A DNA stretch of 64,000 nucleotides, taken from positions 1 through 64,000 of the forward strand of contig VGFU01000005.1 in the NCBI GenBank assembly GCA_016868755.1, given 5' to 3'. A program made the translations under genes and the position numbers. How positions within the stretch are numbered: position 1 is the first letter of the stretch; each line of letters starts with the position of its first letter. Below, piece after piece: positions 18,787 through 32,786 of this stretch. Below the pieces are notes generated by a model. The model did no database searches, was not told the origin of the DNA, and saw only the letters and a list, made by a program, of their open reading frames with translations. The stretch comes from Bacteroidota bacterium. Lineage in GTDB: Bacteria > Bacteroidota > Bacteroidia > Flavobacteriales > Schleiferiaceae.

Positions 18787-20055
18787 ATGGACTTGATAAA
18801 CCCTGGGCATTGGACCCGATCCCTTTTTGACCAAAGCGGACTTAGCGATTGGTGGATCAGCAGCTTAACGGTGCTCATCGACCTCGCTGTCCTCGTGGTC
18901 GCCAGCCTCCTCGCCGACTTCTTTGTGCGCCGCATCGTGGTTTCGATCATTCGCCGCGCGGTGGAACGAAGCAAAGCCACTTGGGACGACCACTTTTTTA
19001 AAGAGCGCGTCTTTCAGGCCGTAGTCCATATTCTTCCAACCATGATCATTCGGGGCTTCCTGCCGGTTGTCTTCGAAGATTTGCCCAAGTGGGTGGCTCC
19101 GCTTGATAAATTCCTCGGAATTGTACTCATTTATCAGATTGTAATCGTGATCAACCGCGCTGCCCGCGCGTCGTCGCACGTGGTGGAAGAGCTGGAGGCA
19201 TTTAAGGACAAGCCGGTGCGTACCCTGCTCTCGGTCGTCCTCTTCTTGTCGTGGCTCATTGGCGGATTGGCCGTCATCTCGGTGCTTTCCAATACCTCCC
19301 TCGCCAGCATCCTCGGGGCCCTCGCCGGCGCCACCGCGATTTTCGTGCTGATCTTTCAGGACGCCATCAACGGACTCCTCGCCAACTTTCAAATCGTACT
19401 CTACGACCTGGTTAAAAAAGGCGACTGGATCACCTTTGAGAAGTTTGGCGTCGACGGCGACGTGGTGAGCATCGACTTAACCACGGTCAAAATCAAGAAC
19501 TTCGACAACACCATTTCGTCGGTTCCAGCTAAGGCCTTTGTCACCGATTCGTTTGTTAACTGGCGCGGAATGCGCCTTTCTAAAGTGCGGCGCATCAAGC
19601 GAAGCATGGTCATTGACCTCGAGAGCGTGCACTTTATCGACGAGGCGGAACTCCAAGAATTCCGCAAAATTCAGCGCGTACAGTCCTACCTTGACGCCCG
19701 CGAAGCCGATATCGCAGCGCACAATTCAGAACATGGCGCCGACAAAACCCACCCCGTCAACGGCCGCCACATGACCAACTTGGGCGTTTTTAGGGCTTAT
19801 GCCGAAGCCTACCTACAGGAGCACCCCAAGGTCTCTAAAAAGCAAAGCATTATGGTCCGCCAGCTCGCCATGCAGGGCGAGGGAATTCCGCTCGAAATCT
19901 ACTGCTTTGCAACCACGATTGTTTTTGAAGACTACGAAGCCGTTGCCGCCGACCTTTTTGACCACCTGATCGCCGCAGTACCCAGCTTCGGGCTGCACCT
20001 CTTTCAGGCTCCCACGGCCCAGAGCATGCGTGCCAGCGGGCATCCCGCCGCATGA
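18787..20055 (+). CDS. Mechanosensitive ion channel, MscS family (YbdG-like)
   Basis: An inner-membrane channel that opens on osmotic downshock. There are about four to five hydrophobic segments in the first 190 residues. The pore helix region is SLASILGALAGATAIFVLIFQDAINGLLANFQIVLYD, followed by the MscS beta domain GDWITFEKFGVDGDVVSIDLTTVKIKNFDNTISSVPAKAF and a C-terminal alpha/beta domain. At 422 residues it matches the YbdG subgroup (about 415), which has an insert in the C-terminal part. The last 4 nt overlap the ruvC start (ATGA), so ruvC is translated from the same mRNA. Confidence 0.92.
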   Translation: MDLINPGHWTRSLFDQSGLSDWWISSLTVLIDLAVLVVASLLADFFVRRIVVSIIRRAVERSKATWDDHFFKERVFQAVVHILPTMIIRGFLPVVFEDLPKWVAPLDKFLGIVLIYQIVIVINRAARASSHVVEELEAFKDKPVRTLLSVVLFLSWLIGGLAVISVLSNTSLASILGALAGATAIFVLIFQDAINGLLANFQIVLYDLVKKGDWITFEKFGVDGDVVSIDLTTVKIKNFDNTISSVPAKAFVTDSFVNWRGMRLSKVRRIKRSMVIDLESVHFIDEAELQEFRKIQRVQSYLDAREADIAAHNSEHGADKTHPVNGRHMTNLGVFRAYAEAYLQEHPKVSKKQSIMVRQLAMQGEGIPLEIYCFATTIVFEDYEAVAADLFDHLIAAVPSFGLHLFQAPTAQSMRASGHPAA

Positions 20056-20648
20056 AGCAGCGCGTTTTAGGCATCGATCCGGGTACCGTGGTAATGGGCT
20101 TCGGCGTAATCGACCGCGACGGCTCGGCGATGAGCCTCGTGGACCTGGGGAGCGTGAAGTTTTCAGCCGCCAAAGAATCGGTAGCGCGCCTAGGTGACAT
20201 TCTGAGGGCTGTCGAAGAACTCCTAGACCGGTTTCAGCCCGATGCCGTTGCCGTCGAGGCCCCTTTTTTTGGCAAAAACGTGCAGTCCATGCTCAAGCTC
20301 GGTCGCGCCCAAGGAGTGGTGCTCAGTGCTGGCCTGCGCCGCGGCCTTACGGTGGCGGAATATCCGCCCGCCGTGGTCAAGCGCCGAATCTCGGGGCGAG
20401 GAGCCGCGTCTAAGGAACAACTCGCCGGATTTTTGGCGGGTATGTTCCGCCTTCCCGACGATCCCAAGCGGGCCCTTGACGCCACCGACGCCCTGGCCGT
20501 CGCCGCGTGCCACGCGTTAACGGTCGATCGAGCCGCGGTCTTGAGCAGCGCGGTCTCGGGTTCGCTTCCGGCAAAAAAGAAAGGTTCACCCCGCTCCTCT
20601 TCCTGGGCGCAGTTTTTGGCCCAAAACCCCGACCGAGCCGCCGAATAA
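20052..20648 (+). CDS. ruvC: Crossover junction endodeoxyribonuclease RuvC
   Basis: Cuts Holliday junctions after RuvAB branch migration. The acidic active-site pattern is visible: D in RVLGIDPGTVVMGFGVI, E in DAVAVEAPFFGKNVQSMLKLGRAQGVVL, and the pair in DATDALAVAACH; the KRRISGRGAASKEQLAGFL loop is also typical. The 198 residues include a short C-terminal extension (KKKGSPRSSSWAQFLAQNPDRAAE). It is co-translated with the MscS gene; ruvA and ruvB are not in the window, as is usual outside Proteobacteria. Confidence 0.96.
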   Translation: MKQRVLGIDPGTVVMGFGVIDRDGSAMSLVDLGSVKFSAAKESVARLGDILRAVEELLDRFQPDAVAVEAPFFGKNVQSMLKLGRAQGVVLSAGLRRGLTVAEYPPAVVKRRISGRGAASKEQLAGFLAGMFRLPDDPKRALDATDALAVAACHALTVDRAAVLSSAVSGSLPAKKKGSPRSSSWAQFLAQNPDRAAE

Positions 20649-20747: not shown

Positions 20748-22535
20748 TTAGTGGGTAACCACCACGTTGGCGCGAAGCTCGTTGCTGGCTCCGGGGGCTA
20801 CCACGACGTAGGCTCCGCTGGGAAGTCCGCTCACGTCAAGGGCAAGCTCGCCATCCACCACTGAAGCTTGGTTGGCCTGAAGCACCAAGGCACCGTTCAG
20901 GTCGTACACCGATACGCCCGCCGTGGGAACAAACCCGTTGAGCTTCAGGTACACCATGTGCTGGGCGGGGTTGGGGTACACCAGCGCGTCCACCACCACT
21001 TCTTCAGGCACGCCTGACGTGTTTTGCTCCATGATCAGCTGCAGGGTCGGAATCACGTTGCCGCTGAATCCGCGCACAAACCAGTTGTTGTCAGAACGCA
21101 CCAGTTCGCGCGGTTGCTCGCCCGCGGTCTGATCGTTTAGCTGGTAGGCCACCGCAGTTGAGTGGTTAAGGTAGAGGTCGGCATCAGAAGTATTTACACA
21201 AATGATGTATCGCTGATTATCATCCAGCTCAATCGGATCCGTGAACAGGTGCGTCACCAAGCTGTCTTGTGCATTGGTCGCATAGGTGTAGGTTTCCAAG
21301 GCTACCGGAGACGTATTGGTCACCGCGCAGTTCGGGTCATTCAAATCAGTAAAGGTGTCAAACCACTCATCAACCGAAATATCTACCGTCCGTCCAATCA
21401 GGGTGTCGGTATTTGACCATCCTGCAAATCGCACGCCTTTTAGCAACATTCGGTCGGCCTGCGGGTGGCGGAAGTGAATACACATTCCCCATGATGAGGT
21501 GAAGCTCGACGACTTGAAGGAGTTGTTGTCCAGCGGTTCTAGCGTACTACCGTCAACTCGGGCGTAGCTGAAGATGCTGTCGTTGATTACCGAAGCAAAG
21601 TCGATGTTGTTGTCGAGTGGGAACGATTCGTTAGCCACGTTCACGTTGTAGTTCACTTCATAAGCGCCCAAGGGGTAGCCGTTAAGTTGGAAGGGCGGGA
21701 AGGTGATGTAGCTCGAGTCGCCTGAGTTTAACGGGAACGACGACGTCGACATCGTATACACCGTCGTGGTGCCGCGCTTCACGGTTACGCTCGCAATGAC
21801 GTTAGCCTGGTTGGCTGAGCCGTCGTTGCGGGTCCAAAAGCCCAACTTCATTTTGAAGTCGCTGGTGTCTTGAGCGATCATCGACGGAACCGCCAGAGCC
21901 GGCGGATACATCGCCTCTGCGGGCGAAATGCTCATGTCGTTGGGGAACGCACCGATCTTGTTGCCCAAAAAGGCAACTACCGTTTGACCTCCCTCAATGG
22001 CCGTTCGCAGCATATCGCCGTCGGGACGGGCAATCATCGCAAACGGAATCGTCGCAAAACCTCCGTAGGCACCAGGTCCACAATTCAGTAGGGCATTGTC
22101 GCGGTTGTACAAAATGACAGCGCGAGCGCCAGCACGTTCCGCGAGGTAGACCTTGAGGCCAAATTCGCAGCTTCCACGTGCAATAAGTACGATTTTACCA
22201 GTTAGCCTGTTTTTTTGCCATGCTGAAGTCGTATCGAGGTTGCAGCCCTCGTACTTCAGCGGAATGCCTGGGTAGGCATTGCCCGTATTGGGGTCGGTCC
22301 CCACAACCGTGTTAACCCCTGCGGTACTATCATCCATCACGACTACGGTATCGAGCACCGCATCTGCAGGATTAAGTAGGTCCGCAAGGCCCCAGCCCGT
22401 CGCGTTTCCGTTGTTCGTGTGGGTCAAGCCGCCTTGAAGCGAGCTCGGAGACATGATGTTCAAGACCACTTGGGCCTGTGCAGCCCCCGCCGTCAAGAGC
22501 ACCAGTCCTAAAAGGTGTAGGATTCTCTTCATCAT
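20748..22535 (-). CDS. Secreted PA-domain protein with T9SS type A sorting domain
   Basis: A signal peptide (MMKRILHLLGLVLLTAGAAQAQ) leads into a protease-associated (PA) domain at about 75-195: KNRLTGKIVLIARGSCEFGLKVYLAERAGARAVILYNRD. The middle 300 residues look like beta-sandwich modules and contain no protease signature that I can find. The C-terminal 75 residues are a T9SS sorting domain (VYPNPAQHMVYLKLNGF, GVSVYDLNGALVL, LDVSGLPSGAYVVV), which directs export through SprA and attachment or release at the cell surface. A PA domain without a peptidase suggests substrate binding. Monocistronic, with a terminator downstream. Confidence 0.83.
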   Translation of the reverse strand: MMKRILHLLGLVLLTAGAAQAQVVLNIMSPSSLQGGLTHTNNGNATGWGLADLLNPADAVLDTVVVMDDSTAGVNTVVGTDPNTGNAYPGIPLKYEGCNLDTTSAWQKNRLTGKIVLIARGSCEFGLKVYLAERAGARAVILYNRDNALLNCGPGAYGGFATIPFAMIARPDGDMLRTAIEGGQTVVAFLGNKIGAFPNDMSISPAEAMYPPALAVPSMIAQDTSDFKMKLGFWTRNDGSANQANVIASVTVKRGTTTVYTMSTSSFPLNSGDSSYITFPPFQLNGYPLGAYEVNYNVNVANESFPLDNNIDFASVINDSIFSYARVDGSTLEPLDNNSFKSSSFTSSWGMCIHFRHPQADRMLLKGVRFAGWSNTDTLIGRTVDISVDEWFDTFTDLNDPNCAVTNTSPVALETYTYATNAQDSLVTHLFTDPIELDDNQRYIICVNTSDADLYLNHSTAVAYQLNDQTAGEQPRELVRSDNNWFVRGFSGNVIPTLQLIMEQNTSGVPEEVVVDALVYPNPAQHMVYLKLNGFVPTAGVSVYDLNGALVLQANQASVVDGELALDVSGLPSGAYVVVAPGASNELRANVVVTH

Positions 22536-22611: not shown

Positions 22612-23019
22612 TTAAATGCTCGGAACTTCGAGGGCGCTTTGAAGGCGATGCGCCATCTCTACAAACTCCTCGGGCTCGAGCTGCAGCTTTGGGTTGGCAA
22701 AATTCAAGTCGGCTTCGCTTCGAAGCGGAACAACGTGCACGTGGGCGTGAGGCACTTCAAAACCCAACACGCTCAAACCAACGCGATTGCACGGCACGAC
22801 TAACTTTTGGGCCTCGGCGACCGCCCGAACTAAATCAAAAACCGCCTGGTAATCGGCTTCTGGAAGCTCAAACAAATTGTCAATCTCTACTTTCGGCACC
22901 ACTAAGGTGTGGCCGTGAGTTAGTGGACGGATATCCAAAAATGCAAAGGCACGATCCGTCTCAGCTACTTTATAGCACGGTACTTCACCTGAAATTATTC
23001 GTGAAAAAATACTAGCCAT
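22612..23019 (-). CDS. HIT family nucleotide hydrolase (Hint type)
   Basis: A 135-residue histidine-triad protein. The catalytic HAHVHVVPL motif sits at about residues 90-98, and the N-terminus MASIFSRIISGEVPCYKVAETDRAFAFLDIRPLTHGHTLVVPK is the standard Hint start. Members cleave the phosphoramidate bond of nucleoside 5'-phosphoramidates. The ATG lies 3 nt after the greA stop, so the two form an operon; the greA-HIT pair is common in Bacteroidota. Confidence 0.94.
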   Translation of the reverse strand: MASIFSRIISGEVPCYKVAETDRAFAFLDIRPLTHGHTLVVPKVEIDNLFELPEADYQAVFDLVRAVAEAQKLVVPCNRVGLSVLGFEVPHAHVHVVPLRSEADLNFANPKLQLEPEEFVEMAHRLQSALEVPSI

Positions 23020-23022
23020 GTT

Positions 23023-23493
23023 CTAGCGTTCTATGGAGACCACTTCAAGTTTCATGATTCCGCTCGGAACCTGAATCTCCGCCATCTCACCAGCTGATTT
23101 TCCGAGTAATCCTTTGCCAATTGGAGAGTTTACCGAAATCTTGCCCGACTTCAAGTCTGCCTCTTGTTCGCTGACCAAGGTGTACTTCATGGTCGCTCCA
23201 TTTGCAGGGTTGCGAACGGTGACCTTTGACAAAATGAGAACCTTGGAGGTATCGAACTGCGACTCATCTACAATTCGGGCATTAGCGACGAGCTCCTCCA
23301 TTTTTGATATTTTCATTTCGAGCAACCCCTGAGCCTCTTTCGCCGCGTCGTACTCGGCATTCTCACTCAAATCACCTTTGTCGCGTGCCTCGGCTATTTG
23401 CTCTGAAATGCGCGGACGCTCCACACTGCGCAAGTGCTCTAGCTCTTCTTTGAGCTTCTTAAATCCTTCGGGAGTGTAGTACGAAACGGACAT
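23023..23493 (-). CDS. greA: Transcription elongation factor GreA
   Basis: Rescues stalled RNA polymerase by stimulating cleavage of the backtracked RNA. The N-terminal coiled coil (YTPEGFKKLKEELEHLRSVERPRISEQIAEARDKGDLSENAEYDAAKEAQGLLE) carries the D and E residues at the tip that act in the polymerase channel (GDLSENAEY). The C-terminal FKBP-like domain has SVNSPIGKGLLGKSAGEMAEIQVPSG. 156 residues, normal length. First gene of the greA-HIT pair. Confidence 0.97.
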   Translation of the reverse strand: MSVSYYTPEGFKKLKEELEHLRSVERPRISEQIAEARDKGDLSENAEYDAAKEAQGLLEMKISKMEELVANARIVDESQFDTSKVLILSKVTVRNPANGATMKYTLVSEQEADLKSGKISVNSPIGKGLLGKSAGEMAEIQVPSGIMKLEVVSIER

Positions 23494-23562: not shown

Positions 23563-24591
23563 TTACAGTACAATTGCGGTGCCAACGGTGTGGATTCCGC
23601 CAAACGAGGTATTCGTCATTCGGTAGGCATAGCTCAAATCAAGCTTGCCGTCGCCCATCGGAATGTTGAACGTAAATCCCGCCGCCGGGCCCGTGAGCGC
23701 TTCGGTGCGCAGGGCATCAAAGCGGTTGTCAAACTGCGCCCAGCTTGCGCGAAGGGCGAAGAGCTCCTTGTAGGCGTATTCCGCGCCCACCGTGAACTGG
23801 TCCTTCTTGAACGAATTTGAGATGAAGTTGCCGGCAAACGTGAGCTTGTGGCCCTCAATTAGCGTGAATCCCTTACTGGCGCCAATGGACAGCTGGGTAG
23901 GCAACTCAAAATCCTCAGAACGGTTTTGAAAACTGTTGGTGTACATTCCGGTTGGAACGGGAAGCACAATGCTCAAACCATCTCCACGGTACGAAAATGA
24001 CGGCCCAATGTTGCGCATCGTAATACCGAACGCAAAATCCTTAATGTCCTTCGGAACGTATTGAACTCCTGCATCAAAGCACACGCCTGTGGCGCTGAGG
24101 TTGTTGATGGTCGAGTTGTACAGCTTGATGTTGATACCGCCAAAGATGCTTTGGGTGAACTTCTTGGCGTACGCAATCCCAATCACGGTGGCCGACGGGC
24201 GGTACGAGCCTAGACCGCCATCCGGCTGGTCCTCAGTGGTAATCTCGATGTCGCCGTAATTCATGCTGTTCATATGGATGCCCAGCACCCCACCGTTGCC
24301 CGTAGGCGTAATGAGGCTCCCGGCGTTGAGCGCGATTCCGCTGCCCACCAACCACTGGGTGTTAGCAAAACCAGCTTGGAGGCCGTCGATGCGTGCGATG
24401 CCCGCGACGTTACCATAAAGGCCCTCAAAACCCCGAACGTTTGCTGTGTTGCCCTCACCCCAGCCCGCGGTGCGAGCCCAGGGATTTACGAGCAACTCTG
24501 AAGCACCCGCAGACCCAGAACGAACGGGGTTGCCTGCAAAAGCCGAGGCTGCGGCGAGCAGCGTGGCGGTAGCTAAAATCTTTTTCATCAT
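23563..24591 (-). CDS. PorV/PorQ family outer-membrane barrel protein
   Basis: A signal peptide (MKKILATATLLAAASAFAG) precedes the family's N-terminal AGASELLVNPWARTAGWGEGNTANVRGFEGLYGNVAGIARIDG block, followed by repeated barrel strands. Known members PorV and PorQ are T9SS components; PorV binds the SprA translocon and shuttles cargo to the attachment complex. The fit to the broad family is good, but this copy sits at the end of an operon with a TonB receptor and a giant secreted protein and not with por core genes. It is therefore more likely a dedicated paralogue than PorV itself. It lies 9 bp after the upstream stop. Confidence 0.82.
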   Translation of the reverse strand: MMKKILATATLLAAASAFAGNPVRSGSAGASELLVNPWARTAGWGEGNTANVRGFEGLYGNVAGIARIDGLQAGFANTQWLVGSGIALNAGSLITPTGNGGVLGIHMNSMNYGDIEITTEDQPDGGLGSYRPSATVIGIAYAKKFTQSIFGGINIKLYNSTINNLSATGVCFDAGVQYVPKDIKDFAFGITMRNIGPSFSYRGDGLSIVLPVPTGMYTNSFQNRSEDFELPTQLSIGASKGFTLIEGHKLTFAGNFISNSFKKDQFTVGAEYAYKELFALRASWAQFDNRFDALRTEALTGPAAGFTFNIPMGDGKLDLSYAYRMTNTSFGGIHTVGTAIVL

Positions 24592-24600
24592 CTCTCGGTC

Positions 24601-27600
24601 TTAGAAGCCAGTTGGGTTGAACGGACGCATCGTGCCAAACCACTTAACGATGGTTTGTCCAATGCCCGGAGCATCAATGTGAATCAAGTACACACCGCTC
24701 GCAATCGGAACTTGGTAGTTGTTGGTCAAATCCCAGTAAATCCACGTGTCACTGTTGTCTTTGCGCATCGTGCGTACCAACGAGCCGTCGGTCGAGTAAA
24801 TCGACACGGTACAGCGCGGCGGGAGGTTGGTGATCTTAACCCGATTATCGTTCTGTGATGTCTCGTACTGGCTAAGGCTATAGTACGGATTGGGCACCAC
24901 GCGGACCGTAGCCAGGGCGTTTTTAGCCGTCAGCGAGTCCCCCGTAATCGTTGCGGCATTGACGGTGCTAAACATGTACTTTGGGTTTCCTGTATTTGAG
25001 TTGTCGGTCACATAACGCTCGTAGGGGCGACCCATACGAATCTTTACGCGAGCCACCGACGGCAAGCCATTCGCTGCGGTGCGCGGCTCATACAAGTTGG
25101 CGTTATTAAAGCGCGGCTCCATAAGCGGAATGGACACCCACATCAACGACTTCGTTACGCGATTGCGGCTCAGAATATTGCTCATGTTACCAAAATCGGC
25201 GAAAAGCGGGTTCTGTGCTTCAACTGAGCCAGCGTAGTCCAAAGGAGTCCGCGACAGACCAGACTGCAGGTATGGCGCCAGGATGTACAGGTTGTGCTGA
25301 CCACCGAAGCGGTACCCACCGGTAACGTTGTCTGCCAATTGAGCGCGTTCGCGACTCGTCGGATTAAACAGCATGTCGTTGCCACGGTCGCCGATCATCC
25401 AGCTGTTCTCGCCAAATGCGATGTTGAGGCGAGTACCCGTTTCAAGATCAATCGCATAACCGGGGAACCACGACCAGCCCGTGGTCGTTGTGCTGCGCAC
25501 CAGTTCGCCGTTCACGAGATCCCATCCGAGGTCCGAGCGCAAGCGCCACTTGCGGGTTCCGCCCGCATTCAGCGAAGCGTCGTCACCCATTTCGAATACG
25601 GGTACACGCGTCCACTTCGAGCGGTCGTCAGTAAATACGATGTCCACGCTGTGCAATTCTGATGGGCTCATTCGAGCGGTAAAGGCACTCATCGACGAGT
25701 CAGCCGGTCCCATGCCCCAAATGGTGTTGGCACCCGAAAGTCCACGACCAATGAAGCTAGCGTAGGCAAACGGACCCCAAGTTCCGCCAATGATGGTCGA
25801 AAAACGTGACTTGTCATCACCGGGGAAATCTTTATAGAACGACCCAGGAGGTGTTGATACCGAATTATTTCCTGCAAGTAACCAGTTCGTTGGGCCATAG
25901 CTCGCGTCATCCGCTACACCAGTAAGCCAGGGTTTCGTTGGGTCGTCGTACACAACTTCTCCACCAAGAATGCTCTGATTGCGCACGTTCTCAATATCAT
26001 TTCCGGGAGCCTCCTGGTTACGGATATCGACTGAAATACCGAGTTCCGGAACTAATTGCTCCACAAGGAATGAAATAGAACCCGCTGAGGTTGCCACCAC
26101 GTCGCCCGCTTCGTCTTCAATGGCCCAGGTAGCGTTGGCATTGGTTCCACTGAAAATCATCGTGTAGTTACCCGACTTCACGCGCAAGGGATCAACCACT
26201 TTAATGTTCACCGGACCATTGCCCGCTTGGTAAACCGTTTGGTCGAGGCGGAAGTTGGTAACAATAGCGTCTTCAGACTCTTGGGTCAACTCCAGCTTGG
26301 TTCCGCCGTTACCCATACCCTCAATTCGGGTAATGATAGGGGCATCCCCGTAGTTAACCTTCTGAATAGTACCATTGGCCTCAGCACTAACCTGGTGCGG
26401 AATTCCCACATACTTCTTCACGTTGTTGCGGCCGGCCAGGTATGGGCGGCGTTGACCACCGGGGGTCAAAACTTGGTCAAACTTCTCGTATTCATTGTGC
26501 GCATAGGCAACCACAGAGAAGTAATACTCTCGGTGGTTAACAAGACGTCGATCAGTTCCCGTGGCGAAGGCATCCTCGGTTACATGGTATGAAGTTTTGA
26601 TACCGCTATTATTCGATGAAATGGTCATGTCTTGTGGCACAAGCAACTCCAAATCGGGGTCTAGCTCCCAGTTAATCATTCGCGTAACTCCATTCTTAAT
26701 GTCGCATTGAGCGATCAGGCGCGCCTGGCTCGGGTCGTAGCGATCGGCCATCGACACGTCGGCGTTCTTGAGCTGGTAAATCTGAAAGCCTTCAAACTTG
26801 TAGGTGTTGTCGTTGGCTTGAATCAACGGATCGATCTCTTCGTAGTCGAAGTTGTCGTTGTTTTGGCCGTCGCGGTACGAAAGCATCAGGACCACGGAGC
26901 GGTCGAGCTCCTGGATCTCCATGTCGGGCGCGTCGGGGCCGTTCAAGATCTGGAAGCAGTTGTCAAACAGGCTTTGGGCCTTGTCGTCGGCAATGATTAC
27001 ACGTTCCACAGAGTACAAGGGACCTGGATCGTTGGTGTTGCGCGCCCAAACGGCACCCGTCGTAATAAAGTTCAATGCACCTGGAGCCAGTGAGAACGGA
27101 CCAGCGTTGTGCAAGCCACGCTTGTCTTGCTGGTTGTTGGGAGATTCAAACCAATTCTGATCGACGATAGGTGCAGTTACACCCGTTGTATCAAAGGTGT
27201 TTCCTGGGTAGGCAAAAAGGGTCGCCAATCCAGAACCATCGGCGGTAAATCCATCACCATTACCCGTGCAACCAGGTCCACACGGGGTCTCCACAACCAA
27301 CGGGTTACCGTTTTTCCAACGAGACTGCATGTAGTTGTAGAATTCCGAAGCGTTGTTGGGGTTGCCCGAAAATGCTGAACCTGTATTGTTGTAGTACATG
27401 AAGCCCGACATGATGATGCGCTCGTTAACTCCAGTAACCGGATTTTCAGGGATGCACACGCCGTTGCGGTCGCGAACTCCATCGATACAGCCGTCGCGGT
27501 CGTTGTCACGGCCATCGAAATAGTCGGCAAAAGGTCCTTGGAAGAAGTCGAATCCAATTGCTGGCGGATTCATGCCGTATCCAATGGGACCTTCATCGTT

Positions 27601-28587
27601 GATATCAGCGTTGTATACAAAACCAAGTCCGCGCGGGATGTCTGAACCGATGATGTCGTCGAGGTAGTTACCCAAATCGGCGTCGAACCAGGTTGAGAAG
27701 TAGGTGTTGGTAAGTCGGAACGTTGACTTGTTGATGATCCGGTAGTTCTGGAACGTCATGTTGTTGATTTCGTCGTTCGTGGCAAAAGCAAAAGCTTGAG
27801 CACGAATCTCGAAGCCCATGGCTCCGGCGTTGGTTTCGGTGTGAACGTTTCCACGGTCGTTGTAAACCCACCAAATCGTTTGGTCACCATAAAGCACGTC
27901 TGTCTCTTTCAAGCGGCAATCGTAGGCACGGTCAAGGTCATAGGCTGGATAGTCCTCATTGTAGTCGTAGCGTCCGTCGCCATCCAAGTCAATGAACGGA
28001 GCCAAGGTGTAGGGAAGTTCGCCCTCGACGCCGTGCGCCGGCCAGTTCTTGATGATGTCTGGGATGCTACCCTCGTAACCAGGGTACTTTGCTGACACAT
28101 CGCAGTCGGGATCGTTTTTGCAAAGCAGCCATCCGCGGTGCATCTCAACTTGCTCGCGAGTAATAATCCAGTGCCGGTCGTACTTATCGCAGACCTCCTT
28201 GGTTACCGAAGCGAGGCCGTCTGTTGAAAGCGGACCGGGCCAGAAGTCGTTACCGCGCGAACGGTAGGTCATGGCCGCCAATTTGAGCTGGTTTCCTTCG
28301 TCAAGTCCGCCCAACCACAGTGAGCCGGCAAACATCGAGTGTCGGTTACTTCCTTTAGGAACCTCGTAGCGCGCAGTATTTAAATCCCACCACATATCGC
28401 CTCCGCCCAAAATAGTGGTACGTACGTTGTTGATGTTCAAGTCAGATTGCGCACGAGAAGGCTGGCAAAGTTCCTCCACCGTCTTATTCGACCGGGTGGT
28501 TTTGCCTGATGTAGTGCCAACGTCTTCACGAGCGATTGCCGTGAATCCGATTAAAGTTGCAGCGAAGAGAAATAGATGCTTGTTCAT
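24601..28587 (-). CDS. Giant secreted protein with T9SS-type C-terminal domain
   Basis: About 1,328 residues. A signal peptide (MNKHLFLFAATLIGFTAIA) opens a conserved N-terminal region (NNVRTTILGGGDMWWDLNTARYEVPKGSNRHSMFAGSLWLGG). Several Asp-rich, calcium-binding-like stretches follow (DLDGDGRYDYNEDYPAYDLD, DGRDNDRDGCIDGVRDRNGVC). The C-terminus has VVPNPYYSLSQYE, CTVSIYSTDGSLVRTM and YLIHIDAPGIGQTIVKWF, like the FlgD-Ig/T9SS sorting domain, but it ends FNPTGF. No enzyme is recognised. It starts 17 nt after the TonB receptor stop and is followed by a PorV-like gene. ATG 28587 is chosen over 28596 because it gives the signal peptide directly. Confidence 0.78.
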   Translation of the reverse strand: MNKHLFLFAATLIGFTAIAREDVGTTSGKTTRSNKTVEELCQPSRAQSDLNINNVRTTILGGGDMWWDLNTARYEVPKGSNRHSMFAGSLWLGGLDEGNQLKLAAMTYRSRGNDFWPGPLSTDGLASVTKEVCDKYDRHWIITREQVEMHRGWLLCKNDPDCDVSAKYPGYEGSIPDIIKNWPAHGVEGELPYTLAPFIDLDGDGRYDYNEDYPAYDLDRAYDCRLKETDVLYGDQTIWWVYNDRGNVHTETNAGAMGFEIRAQAFAFATNDEINNMTFQNYRIINKSTFRLTNTYFSTWFDADLGNYLDDIIGSDIPRGLGFVYNADINDEGPIGYGMNPPAIGFDFFQGPFADYFDGRDNDRDGCIDGVRDRNGVCIPENPVTGVNERIIMSGFMYYNNTGSAFSGNPNNASEFYNYMQSRWKNGNPLVVETPCGPGCTGNGDGFTADGSGLATLFAYPGNTFDTTGVTAPIVDQNWFESPNNQQDKRGLHNAGPFSLAPGALNFITTGAVWARNTNDPGPLYSVERVIIADDKAQSLFDNCFQILNGPDAPDMEIQELDRSVVLMLSYRDGQNNDNFDYEEIDPLIQANDNTYKFEGFQIYQLKNADVSMADRYDPSQARLIAQCDIKNGVTRMINWELDPDLELLVPQDMTISSNNSGIKTSYHVTEDAFATGTDRRLVNHREYYFSVVAYAHNEYEKFDQVLTPGGQRRPYLAGRNNVKKYVGIPHQVSAEANGTIQKVNYGDAPIITRIEGMGNGGTKLELTQESEDAIVTNFRLDQTVYQAGNGPVNIKVVDPLRVKSGNYTMIFSGTNANATWAIEDEAGDVVATSAGSISFLVEQLVPELGISVDIRNQEAPGNDIENVRNQSILGGEVVYDDPTKPWLTGVADDASYGPTNWLLAGNNSVSTPPGSFYKDFPGDDKSRFSTIIGGTWGPFAYASFIGRGLSGANTIWGMGPADSSMSAFTARMSPSELHSVDIVFTDDRSKWTRVPVFEMGDDASLNAGGTRKWRLRSDLGWDLVNGELVRSTTTTGWSWFPGYAIDLETGTRLNIAFGENSWMIGDRGNDMLFNPTSRERAQLADNVTGGYRFGGQHNLYILAPYLQSGLSRTPLDYAGSVEAQNPLFADFGNMSNILSRNRVTKSLMWVSIPLMEPRFNNANLYEPRTAANGLPSVARVKIRMGRPYERYVTDNSNTGNPKYMFSTVNAATITGDSLTAKNALATVRVVPNPYYSLSQYETSQNDNRVKITNLPPRCTVSIYSTDGSLVRTMRKDNSDTWIYWDLTNNYQVPIASGVYLIHIDAPGIGQTIVKWFGTMRPFNPTGF

Positions 28588-28603
28588 AACGGACATAATG
28601 CTA

Positions 28604-31600
28604 TTACAGACCTAAACGAACGCCCAAACGGAGAAGGCGCGGCGTAGAGAAGTTGGTTGGGTTGACCATTCGCATGGTGTAAAGATCAGAGAACGCTTGA
28701 GCGTTGGCCGTGAACGCAATGGCTTGCTGTCCTTGCGGCGAAGAAAGGTAGCCGTCGTCGTCGGGCGATCCCGTGTAGGGGTAAATACCGAGTACGTTTG
28801 CGGCGTTGAGCACGTTGAGGACCTGGAGGTACACTTCAAAGTTGTTTTTGCCCTTGTTGTAGTACCACACCTTGTTGGCGGTCATGTCAATGCGGAACTG
28901 CCACGGCAAACGAGAACCGTTCAGCAAACCAACCACCGGAGAAGCAGACTCCACTAGGGAGTATGCACGCACACGGCGTGAATAGGGGAAACCAGATCCA
29001 GCAGTAGCTAACATGTTCACCCCTGCATTTTCGAAAACTTTAATCTTACCCCACACAGGACCGTTGTAGTCGGTGCCCTGACCGTAACGGAAATCTATGT
29101 TTCCAGACAAATTGTGGCGCTGGTCGTAGTCCAACGGTACGATGTAGCGAATGTTGGGCAATCCAGTACGAGCTAGAGAAAGACCTGATTCCGCCCCTGA
29201 ACCGGTACCGTCGGCAAACGAAAGTGAGTACTGCGCATTCATCTGAACATTACCCACGCGACGAAGATCATACTGGAAGCTGAAGCCTTTTGAAGTTGTA
29301 AAGTCGCGGTTTCCGTAGGTCACATACGTTGCAGGGTATGCCTCTGTTACCGAAACCGTCTGAATCAAGTCGCGGTATTCGCGGTAAAAGGCATTGATTT
29401 TGAGCGCACTGCGATCAGTGAGCTTTTGGCGGAATCCGATTTCATACTCCGTTTGCTTCTGCGGTAGGAGCTCGGGGTTATCTACTACCGAGGCGTTTCC
29501 GTAAACTAAGTTTTGGTAATCAAAAGGATTGAAGCGAGACTGCGCAGCAGTTGGGCGCTGAACAAGGAGGTCGTAGTGCGCGAAGAACTCAGCTACGTCC
29601 GAAATGGGGAACTGGAACGAAATACGCGGACTTACGGTAACCTGTGGGCGGTAGTCGCGGAACGACTTTTCACTCAACACTGGGGCGTTAGGGTTGCTGG
29701 GATCTGAAAACGCTTCCTCAAAAATCCAAGGCTTAGCTTGACCACCTGATGCGTTGGCGATGAGGGTCGGGTTGGGCTGGGGCGAACCGTCTGCGTTGAA
29801 CCAGTCGAAACCATTGCGGTAGCCCACAATTCGCTTTGGGTTCTTGATGTCGTCAACATAAACCATGTAGCCGTCACCCATGGATGCGGGGATGTCGCTA
29901 CCCTCAAGTCCACCACGGGCCTTGACGTCAGCCACGGTGTGCGCAGGGAATAGCGAGAACGGATCTCGGAGCACCGGCTGGTTGGCGTCGTAGCGGTCTA
30001 CGCGCACGCCGACGTTGAAGAAGAGATCTTCAAACGTGAATTGATCCTGAATGTACCCTGCCATGTAAATGGGCTGGAAGGCGCGCACGGGGTAGGTGCG
30101 GTTGCCGCTGGCGTCGGTGGCTTTGAAGAAGTCGGCCAACGTCGGGTTGCCTGGCTGCAGTGCACCCGTGTAGTCGTAGCCGAAGTAGCTCACGTACGAT
30201 GAACCTCCCGGGTTAACAAGCTCCTGAGCTGAAAAGAGCGACAATCCACCGAATCGAGCAAAATCGTCCGGTGAAATGTTGTCTATATCCAACAGGCGCT
30301 GATCCTTCCCATCGGGATCCCAACCGAGCTGCTTGCGCAAATTGCGATCAAAAGTGCGCGGCTTGGTGAGGTCAATTGCACGGTTGTAGAAGATGGTGTC
30401 TTGGAACACTCCGTCGCGGTAAACCAAAATGGGGTTATCCAAGTCTAACTCGCGCATGTGGTCATTCTGAAGGTTGCGCATCAACGTCCAAAGAGCTGAT
30501 GAAGCCACTCCAAAACTGCGGTCAAAACGCTGTTCGTACTCGAGACCAGCGATGAGCGAGTGTCCCTTAATATCAAAGTTGGTCGATGCAGTAATGCGGT
30601 ACTGCTCGTTTTGGCTGTAGTTATAGCCCGATTGTACGGCACCAACGTTTCCAAAGAGACCGTACGCATCGTACGGACCTTGACCATTCAGGAGTCCGCC
30701 GCCTTGTTGGATATTGACCAAGTTGGCCACGTTATTGGCAATCAACCCACTGTTTACCAGATTGTAGTATGATTGGGTATATGCACCAAGGATTGGGTTG
30801 TAGGAGGACGGAGTAAATGCGATTCCCGTATCGAGATCGAGCAGCTTGCGCCATGCGGTAATCCCTGTCTTAGCATCTTGGCCATATCCATACAGACCAA
30901 TGCGGCCCGTCTCGAAGTTTCCTACGTGACCGTAGCGGAAAATATTATCGCGGTGGTTGGGGTCGTAGCTTTTGAAGTTGTTGATCGTGTAGTCTGCCTG
31001 AATGGTGTAGAAGGCATTCTTAATCAAGCCTTTGTCGTCTCCGCTGCCAAATTGCTGCGTGAAGCGGACGTAACCCGAGAGGTCACGTTGCGTTGAGGCC
31101 CCATTGTTTTCGTAGTTGAAAATGGAATGGAAGAAGCTACCGTTACGTCCGTCAGAGTAAAAGGCGCGACCACCAAGAACCAAGTTGGTCTTTTTACTTG
31201 TTTTAATGTTGATGTTACCCGTTGCGCGGAATACGGTACTCGCCACATTCAAGCGGCTTGGTACTATTTCAAATGCATCGCGGGTAAGGAGTTCGGCTCG
31301 GCGAATGGTGCCGAGACCGGTAGCCGTGGGCATAAGCGGGTTGGCCTTCAAATCGGCTAAGATGTCATCTTTAACCTTGTAAACTGGCGTGGCGTATGGA
31401 CGACCTACGCCTGTGTAGCTGAATTCCGTTGCCAAGAGGAAGCCCACAAGAGGAGCCGTCTTCTCTTTATTAAAAACAAGCGGACCACCCAGGGTCAATC
31501 CACCCAGGTGGTAGTTGTTGCGATCAAAAAGGGCTGAGGTAACGTATTCAACGGTACCGAAGTAGCGAGGGCTTGGACCTTTGGTTGTCGTTGAGATAAC

Positions 31601-32254
31601 CCCGCCGGTAACGTCGCCATATTGAGCAGGCACACCTCCAGTAATTACTTCAGTTGATTGAATAGCTTCGCGAGGAAGGTTGATGTCACCGCGCATTTTT
31701 ACGCCGTCAACAAACACAACGTTGGCATCACCACGGCCACCGCGGAAGAAGGTGCCACCGCTGCGCTCGTCTTGAACGACACTGGCCGTTTGCGCAAGTA
31801 CAGCATTCACCCCGCGACCGGCGAGGTTGCGAATTTGTTCAGCGCCAAAGCTCTGGGCCGTCTTCCCTTTTTCAATCAGCGGTGCTTCATACTTGGCGAC
31901 GACGTCAACGGCTCCAAGCTCTACACTTGAGGTAGACAACGCAAACTTGAGTTCGGTCGGTCGACCTGGGTTGATCTCCACTCCAGTGAAGGTAATTGAG
32001 GTGTAGCCAAACATTTCACAGACTACAGTGTACGTGCCAGGCTGTACCGGGTTGATGTTGTAGTTTCCGTCGAAGTCCGAGGAGCCCGAGGCCACCTTGA
32101 ACTGACCAGATTTAACGGTAATAATAGCCTGGACCAGCTCTTCACCGGTCTTTTTGTCTTTGACTGTACCTCGGAGCGAACCGGGGCGAGCCTGCCCCCA
32201 CGCGAGGGTGGAGGCTCCGAAAATCAGCACTAACAGGGCGTAACGTAGACGCAT
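28604..32254 (-). CDS. TonB-dependent receptor, large, first gene of the PorV-like operon
   Basis: About 1,216 residues. A signal peptide (MRLRYALLVLIFGASTLAWGQ) and a carboxypeptidase-like domain (SLRGTVKDKKTGEELVQAIITVKSGQF, about 24-110) precede a plug with NLAGRGVNAVLAQTASVVQ, FFRGGRGDANVVFVDGVKM and ITGGVPAQYGDVTGGVISTTTKGP, and a long barrel ending LGVRLGL. It is 300-400 residues longer than the other receptors here because of long extracellular loops. The start at ATG 32254 is preferred to an in-frame TTG at 32260. No SusD-type lipoprotein follows; the partners are the giant secreted protein and the PorV-like protein. Confidence 0.88.
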   Translation of the reverse strand: MRLRYALLVLIFGASTLAWGQARPGSLRGTVKDKKTGEELVQAIITVKSGQFKVASGSSDFDGNYNINPVQPGTYTVVCEMFGYTSITFTGVEINPGRPTELKFALSTSSVELGAVDVVAKYEAPLIEKGKTAQSFGAEQIRNLAGRGVNAVLAQTASVVQDERSGGTFFRGGRGDANVVFVDGVKMRGDINLPREAIQSTEVITGGVPAQYGDVTGGVISTTTKGPSPRYFGTVEYVTSALFDRNNYHLGGLTLGGPLVFNKEKTAPLVGFLLATEFSYTGVGRPYATPVYKVKDDILADLKANPLMPTATGLGTIRRAELLTRDAFEIVPSRLNVASTVFRATGNINIKTSKKTNLVLGGRAFYSDGRNGSFFHSIFNYENNGASTQRDLSGYVRFTQQFGSGDDKGLIKNAFYTIQADYTINNFKSYDPNHRDNIFRYGHVGNFETGRIGLYGYGQDAKTGITAWRKLLDLDTGIAFTPSSYNPILGAYTQSYYNLVNSGLIANNVANLVNIQQGGGLLNGQGPYDAYGLFGNVGAVQSGYNYSQNEQYRITASTNFDIKGHSLIAGLEYEQRFDRSFGVASSALWTLMRNLQNDHMRELDLDNPILVYRDGVFQDTIFYNRAIDLTKPRTFDRNLRKQLGWDPDGKDQRLLDIDNISPDDFARFGGLSLFSAQELVNPGGSSYVSYFGYDYTGALQPGNPTLADFFKATDASGNRTYPVRAFQPIYMAGYIQDQFTFEDLFFNVGVRVDRYDANQPVLRDPFSLFPAHTVADVKARGGLEGSDIPASMGDGYMVYVDDIKNPKRIVGYRNGFDWFNADGSPQPNPTLIANASGGQAKPWIFEEAFSDPSNPNAPVLSEKSFRDYRPQVTVSPRISFQFPISDVAEFFAHYDLLVQRPTAAQSRFNPFDYQNLVYGNASVVDNPELLPQKQTEYEIGFRQKLTDRSALKINAFYREYRDLIQTVSVTEAYPATYVTYGNRDFTTSKGFSFQYDLRRVGNVQMNAQYSLSFADGTGSGAESGLSLARTGLPNIRYIVPLDYDQRHNLSGNIDFRYGQGTDYNGPVWGKIKVFENAGVNMLATAGSGFPYSRRVRAYSLVESASPVVGLLNGSRLPWQFRIDMTANKVWYYNKGKNNFEVYLQVLNVLNAANVLGIYPYTGSPDDDGYLSSPQGQQAIAFTANAQAFSDLYTMRMVNPTNFSTPRLLRLGVRLGL

Positions 32255-32335
32255 AAGCAAAGCGTTTTAGGTGGATCCGATTGGAATCAGTGGGCTAAAA
32301 TAACGCAGAATTAATGTGGATAAGCAGGTTCGGCT

Positions 32336-32343
32336 TAGGTTTG
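32336..32343 (+). promoter_or_regulatory. -7 box for the Rieske-like lipoprotein gene, 8 nt from ATG
   Basis: TAGGTTTG matches TAnnTTTG and ends 8 nt before ATG 32352, which argues for the shorter start over GTG 32316. Confidence 0.5.
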
Positions 32344-32351
32344 TTTACGAA

Positions 32352-32786
32352 ATGAAGAAGATTTTTTCACCTTGGCTTGCTTTGGCACTTTTGGTCAGCT
32401 GCGACGGCTCAGACAACCGCCACCCAGTTCCCTACGTGCTGCTGAGCGAAACGATCTTCCTGAACAGCCCCTCAGCCTTTGATCTTCAGTTTGTTGGCGG
32501 AATTTATTCGCGCAACGATTGGGGCCACGGGGGCGTCGCCGTGTACCGCCGAACCAACTTTGGTGATGCCAACGATTTTGGCGCCTACGACCTGAGATGC
32601 CCCAACCACGTATCGCAGTCCTGCGGAGCGGCGCAAATCGTCGAGGGTCTGTATGCGGAATGCGCCTGCGACGGCCAACAGTTCCTGCTGTTTGACGGCA
32701 GCGCAACTAGCGGCACCACCACCTGGGGACTACTACCCTACCGCGTTCAGTACGACGGGGCTTCGCTCCAAATCAGCAACCTTTAA
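32352..32786 (+). CDS. Lipoprotein with a degenerate Rieske-like fold
   Basis: A 144-residue protein with a lipoprotein signal (MKKIFSPWLALALLVSCDGS). The C-terminal half has the layout of a Rieske [2Fe-2S] domain: YDLRCPNH, then AECACDGQQFLLFDGSATSGTTTWGLLPYRVQYDGASLQI, which aligns with the CPCHGSRFD..G....GPA...L..Y.V...G..L.I pattern. The ligand set is not intact: the first motif is CxxH and not CxH, and the second histidine is an aspartate (CACD). It may have lost the cluster or use other ligands. The assignment rests on pattern alone. Its stop overlaps the convergent desaturase stop by 3 bases. Confidence 0.62.
   Translation: MKKIFSPWLALALLVSCDGSDNRHPVPYVLLSETIFLNSPSAFDLQFVGGIYSRNDWGHGGVAVYRRTNFGDANDFGAYDLRCPNHVSQSCGAAQIVEGLYAECACDGQQFLLFDGSATSGTTTWGLLPYRVQYDGASLQISNL

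Follow-up and report, generated by a model that had tools for sequence, protein, structure and literature searches.

Three long, closely spaced genes on the minus strand of this 64,000-nucleotide stretch of DNA (the window) raise the question of what a TonB-dependent receptor (TONB), a very large secreted surface protein (GIANT) and a PorV-like barrel (PORV) would do together. The trio spans positions 23563–32254, and the closely packed three-gene set given in a preliminary description of this DNA is confirmed. TONB (28604–32254, minus strand), identified by Pfam, an AF2 model, PDB fold matches and its homologues upstream of GIANT, comprises 1216 aa from an ATG, or 1218 aa from an alternative TTG at 32260 (28604–32260, minus strand). 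GIANT (24601–28596, minus strand; 1331 aa), supported by its ORF, its homologues and an AF2 model, follows after 7 or 16 nt depending on start codon choice, an in-frame ATG at 28587 giving 1328 aa. PORV (23563–24591, minus strand; 342 aa), assigned to the FadL family of barrels from NF033709, a tree and its adjacency to GIANT, begins 9 nt further on. Downstream of the trio are greA (23023–23493, minus strand) and a HIT-family gene (22612–23019, minus strand), both identified by Pfam and conserved as neighbours in the class, and a small lipoprotein-like gene (32316–32786, plus strand) is divergent from TONB. A promoter and terminator scan gave signals no better than those of shuffled sequences.

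Some further features of the surroundings were recorded. Most order-level loci have a TONB-divergent gene similar in size to the one at 32316–32786; those that were read carry a degenerate Rieske-like motif (CPxH...CPCHG), with Pfam support for a Rieske domain in one relative only (E 0.07). A ruvC gene (20052–20648, plus strand), convergent with the cluster, seems to be retained past HIT in the order; here, the gene of a PA-domain T9SS protein (20748–22535) separates RuvC from HIT.

The trio is inherited together across much of Bacteroidota. A GIANT query was run against 296 genomes sampled from the order and 296 sampled from the phylum, with matches in 138 and 153 of them, respectively, and GIANT was present in 48 of the 49 genomes of the window's family. 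The matches in one genus of family f3, seven genomes of the phylum set, were weak (E 1e-5 to 1e-3) and may be partial, and several families within the order and class that have a T9SS lacked GIANT or matched it only weakly. The named loci (n = 80) came from Saprospiraceae, Chitinophagales and Flavobacteriales; carriers include many uncultured lineages as well as the cultured Saprospira grandis DSM 2844 and Neolewinella species. The order TONB–GIANT–PORV recurred in about 20 families, among which GIANT can be as little as about 25% identical to its counterpart in the window. TONB was directly upstream of GIANT at 66 of the 75 named loci, from Saprospiraceae to Flavobacteriales, with readable upstream sequence, and PORV directly downstream at 66 of the 78 with readable downstream sequence (contig ends removed five upstream and two downstream flanks); the loci without TONB or PORV include spurious ORFs of a simple gene caller and paralogues. 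Conservation of the trio over the phylum is more than chance. Most GIANT-bearing genomes have a single copy or a few, and GIANT is kept in small genomes of 1.3–1.9 Mb; distant phylum members carry several paralogues.

The linkage was also seen in a reciprocal test on 28 genomes (18 with and 10 without GIANT), in which the coordinates of profile hits were compared with GIANT positions. The PORV profile gave 19 matches above 360 bits, all 19 beside a GIANT, with the next score at 213; none of the ten GIANT-less genomes contained a strong PORV match (top score 97 bits). Full-length matches of the TONB profile lay immediately upstream of GIANT, and in the GIANT-less genomes the profile reached at most about 133 bits; an N-terminal fragment found on a contig from genome G332 stayed unplaced. 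Strong PORV matches thus adjoined GIANT in every case, and genomes without GIANT were without all three genes; the refuting condition named in the preliminary description, separation of the genes in most genomes, did not materialise. The test thereby supported the view that one giant cargo and one receptor have a PorV-family paralogue of their own.

Which of the adjacent genes belong to the unit was indicated by gene order and by evolutionary distances. At every complete order-level trio locus examined the order was TONB–GIANT–PORV–greA–HIT; the exceptions were GIANT paralogues, either additional or decayed. Among more distant members of the phylum, where GIANT is 25–32% identical to the window protein, the trio was kept and greA and HIT were missing beside it. 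Across 65 complete five-gene loci, pairwise distances among TONB, GIANT and PORV correlated at 0.87–0.90, versus 0.22–0.61 between trio members and the equally adjacent greA and HIT genes, whose short sequences give noisier distances. On both counts greA and HIT were rejected as mechanistic partners, and they are probably not part of the mechanism. At sequence level, the correlated distances within the trio are read as common descent, not contact; in a covariation analysis (86 paired rows, Neff 72), pairs between the GIANT C-terminal domain (CTD) and PORV were not enriched among the top 100.

PORV scored 127.5 bits with the PorV family model NF033709 (cut-off 90), making it a member of the PorV/PorQ family, and all 23 aligned PORV members matched that model at E ≤ 0.01. 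Its scores with the models for PorV proper (NF033710; 47.7 bits, cut-off 250) and PorQ proper (NF033711; 62.2 bits, cut-off 220) were far below the cut-offs. In the tree, the trio barrels formed one clade (support 99/96) separate from those of PorV and PorQ, from another clade without a name and from the barrels of paralogous receptor-barrel clusters. Two other identities were discarded: PORV is not the only PorV of this genome, a canonical PorV being found elsewhere at 423 bits, nor is it the NCBIfam “PorV2” (NF052325), which 19/23 members matched but with 65–80 bits in those checked against a cut-off of 325, the window PORV giving no match at 0.01.

The genome encodes SprA, PorZ and a PorV whose gene adjoins a PorU-like one, as well as PorQ, for which the top score of 163 bits does not reach the cut-off of 220. 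Because these canonical components are present, PORV is an additional barrel. SprA was found in all 153 GIANT-positive phylum genomes, compared with 228/296 overall; a naive hypergeometric probability for these counts takes no account of relatedness among the genomes. As GIANT always co-occurs with SprA, it is most likely exported by the ordinary T9SS translocon, and the idea of a self-contained export machine, raised in the preliminary description, is not supported.

The GIANT CTD (24604–24924, minus strand; residues about 1225–1331) is a long, type-A-like T9SS signal. With the type A model TIGR04183 it scored 18 bits, 22.3 bits, or 23.3 bits with neighbours in frame, around the cut-off of 23; with the PorZ C-terminal domain model it was matched at E 4e-7 and 31.9 bits, versus 22.3 bits with the type A model. 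The “T9SS-like tail” noted earlier is less firm than described, the generic model scoring near its cut-off and the PorZ CTD model scoring better. GIANT was the only CTD protein in the genome besides PorZ to score higher with the PorZ than with the type A model; another CTD protein of this genome gave 21.6 and 55.9 bits, respectively. Within the GIANT family, 23/27 members matched the PorZ model and 20/27 weakly matched the type A model. The length from PNPY to the end was mostly 95–120 residues and includes a conserved extra tail (..KWFGxMRPxDLxxF), whereas the local type A control measured 77. In P. gingivalis, the uncleaved CTDs of PorZ and PorU have 96–108 residues and cleaved ones 67–88 (PMC11285876). 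The GIANT CTD thus resembles the uncleaved PorZ type more closely than ordinary type A tails, and since it prefers the PorZ model and has a length like that of published uncleaved CTDs, its retention after export is a reasoned prediction. Because some features of type A tails persist, among them a lysine close to the C terminus, and 20/27 members weakly match the generic model, ordinary handling by PorV and PorU may also apply.

Such handling leads to another explanation of the locus, in which GIANT would be an ordinary type A cargo, carried by PorV and relieved of its CTD by PorU, the product being released or linked to lipopolysaccharide; PORV would be a separate transporter of hydrophobic molecules, and the operon would group the surface functions for one substrate. 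The type-A-like CTD with its conserved lysine, the occurrence of canonical PorV, PorU, PorQ and PorZ in the genome, and the fact that FadL-family barrels can be transporters (PMC12611786) are consistent with it. We nevertheless consider it unlikely, given the strict one-to-one relation of the PORV clade with GIANT, the best CTD score with the uncleaved PorZ type, and the correlated distances of the trio.

The body of GIANT offered less to recognise. It begins with a signal peptide (28531–28596, minus strand; residues about 1–22, cut after TAIA by eye), in which no lipobox Cys was seen when the sequence was read by eye; because of this, GIANT needs another anchor if it stays on the cell. A region conserved throughout the phylum (26482–28470, minus strand; residues about 43–705), delimited by homologue match ranges and invariant columns, carries an invariant Asp cluster of the DPDLG..DDYVG(C)D type. 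The calcium-type Asp repeats described earlier reduced to two DxDxDG-like motifs, DLDGDGRYD (27964–27990, minus strand; residues 203–211) and DNDRDGCID (27481–27507, minus strand; residues 364–372); they form no repeat array. No Pfam domains were found in GIANT. The AF2 model of residues 23–1222 (pLDDT 90, pTM 0.76) was mainly beta, and no convincing solved relative of the core was identified (TM at most 0.22). An enzymatic domain was rejected, as there was no Pfam match and glycoside phosphorylase/hydrolase matches were weak (E about 1e-4, TM at most 0.22). Ligand binding by GIANT is a guess, the best structural matches of its core being weak.

A large, beta-rich, Asp-rich secreted protein could also be a structural surface-layer or adhesion protein, with TONB and PORV serving as its membrane anchors. 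The N-terminal region of TONB does show weak similarity to an anammox S-layer protein model, probably reflecting only a shared regulatory-like domain. An adhesin would not usually be so highly conserved along 1300 residues, nor have so many invariant positions, however, and a structural layer needs no TonB-dependent receptor; we regard this explanation as improbable.

TONB itself is a TonB-dependent receptor, with both a plug domain and the barrel fold. It consists of an N-terminal carboxypeptidase-regulatory-like domain (CarboxypepD_reg, 3.6e-15), a plug (4.8e-6, above cut-off) and a barrel that appears to have very large extracellular loops. Its AF2 model (pLDDT 89.7) found TonB-dependent transporters (TBDTs) as best solved matches in the PDB, with E down to 7e-27, among them BtuB, PhuR and XusA. 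The TM score reached 0.81 when normalised to the target and about 0.4 when normalised to the query, so more than half of TONB lies outside the common TBDT core, a part that in the model appears to be mainly long extracellular loops. TONB was rejected as a SusC/RagA protein because no SusC family model matched in Pfam or NCBIfam and the top structural matches were other, classical TBDTs. GIANT likewise failed as a SusD: it had no SusD match in Pfam or NCBIfam, its model was mainly beta, SusD was not among the listed fold matches, and the lipobox was missing. Membership of the SusD/SusC families is contradicted by these results; the preliminary description had offered, as a comparison, that GIANT might sit over the receptor as SusD does over SusC.

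Taking these features together, we propose that GIANT would be exported to the surface as T9SS cargo and collected there by the adjacent PORV, which would hold it through its uncleaved CTD, as PorQ holds PorZ and PorV holds PorU (PMC5562754), and as PorP/SprF-like barrels hold type B cargo. Anchored in this way, GIANT would serve the large-loop TONB as a substrate-capturing surface subunit for energised uptake across the outer membrane. That the locus is an energised uptake module, in which a T9SS cargo held by its own PorV-family barrel works with TONB in one complex, has in our judgement an even chance of being correct.

The nearest precedents are the PorQ-PorZ and PorV-PorU pairs (PMC5562754), which share with the proposed module a FadL-family barrel of the PorV/PorQ family holding a T9SS protein whose CTD is retained; for GIANT, whose CTD best matches that of PorZ, such retention is a prediction. 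By contrast, PORV forms a separate clade, GIANT has neither sortase nor PorZ domains, and the trio operon includes a TonB-dependent receptor in a genome that has the canonical components as well. The genes of the cargo-specific PorP/SprF shuttles come directly after those of their type B cargo (PMC12618676, PMC9143113). PORV is similarly a dedicated barrel gene directly downstream of one cargo gene, although the GIANT CTD is type A-like, PORV is of the PorV family, and no receptor has been reported in the PorP/SprF scheme. In SusCD and other pairs of a TBDT and a surface lipoprotein, such as XusAB, a large TonB-dependent receptor of Bacteroidota is likewise found next to a large surface protein. 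GIANT is neither a lipoprotein nor SusD-like, TONB lacks SusC family matches, and PORV is extra, so the trio may be likened to SusCD in its logic only, as a non-homologous analogue whose lid would be unrelated and whose anchor would be a protein where SusD has a lipid.

A fourth comparison is with the Bacteroidota BAM complex. In its BamG-BamH pair (PMC12578637, PMC12611786), a FadL-family barrel is, by description, likewise a platform for an extracellular protein, but BamH is a lipoprotein and no TonB-dependent receptor is involved. The trio could correspondingly be a machine for outer-membrane assembly or envelope maintenance, TONB giving energy or a docking barrel for surface building and not importing nutrients. 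The precedent of BamG, and a few-copy GIANT kept in genomes of 1.3–1.9 Mb and in 48/49 of the window's family, would fit such a role. We think it quite unlikely, because TONB retains the plug and barrel of an importer, the trio is missing from several T9SS-bearing families, and the several paralogues of distant phylum members look more like substrate-specific sets.

Barrels of the PorV family, cargo of the T9SS and TBDTs are each of known kinds. No description or function of the trio was found in the open-access literature searched, a scope outside which subscription papers and preprints lie, and relative to that literature the phylum-wide three-gene combination is new. If the proposed uptake module is real, the T9SS would be needed to build a nutrient-uptake complex, beyond exporting enzymes and adhesins, and PorV-family barrels would specialise per cargo like PorP/SprF barrels. 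It would also assign a role to a conserved family of surface proteins of more than 1000 residues that lack any Pfam domain, and a partner to a class of TonB-dependent receptors. A broader reading, which we offer tentatively and hold to be possible but somewhat doubtful, is that the trio represents a phylum-wide class of energised uptake complexes with a T9SS-built lid, in which a third pair of FadL-family barrel and uncleaved CTD, separate from PorV-PorU and PorQ-PorZ, locks an exported protein of more than 130 kDa onto the large-loop TONB. Such a class would be the ancient equivalent of SusCD, and its absence from many of the sampled families with a T9SS would explain why it has gone unnoticed.

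Several related loci were noted alongside the trio. Outside the window, the same genome carries a second, divergent set (L116; G000:C1:138000-156000) around a 945-aa TonB receptor and a 335-aa PorV-family barrel, with a 708-aa protein weakly similar to GIANT, a 732-aa T9SS protein, and lipoprotein-like proteins of 483 and 397 aa; at L214 and L215, the sizes of the genes around a receptor-barrel pair resemble those of this set. The unnamed clade of PorV-family barrels (about 355–376 aa; L220, L221, L222, L223, L224 and L227) is well supported and also occurs in GIANT-less genomes. Among GIANT paralogues, one locus (L111; G510:C88) has three tandem genes of about 900 aa with no adjoining receptor or barrel, and another (L048; G026:C9) has a broken additional copy with internal stops. 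In one family, a shorter paralogue of about 700–740 aa lies within about 10 kb of the trio (L052, L120 and L124).
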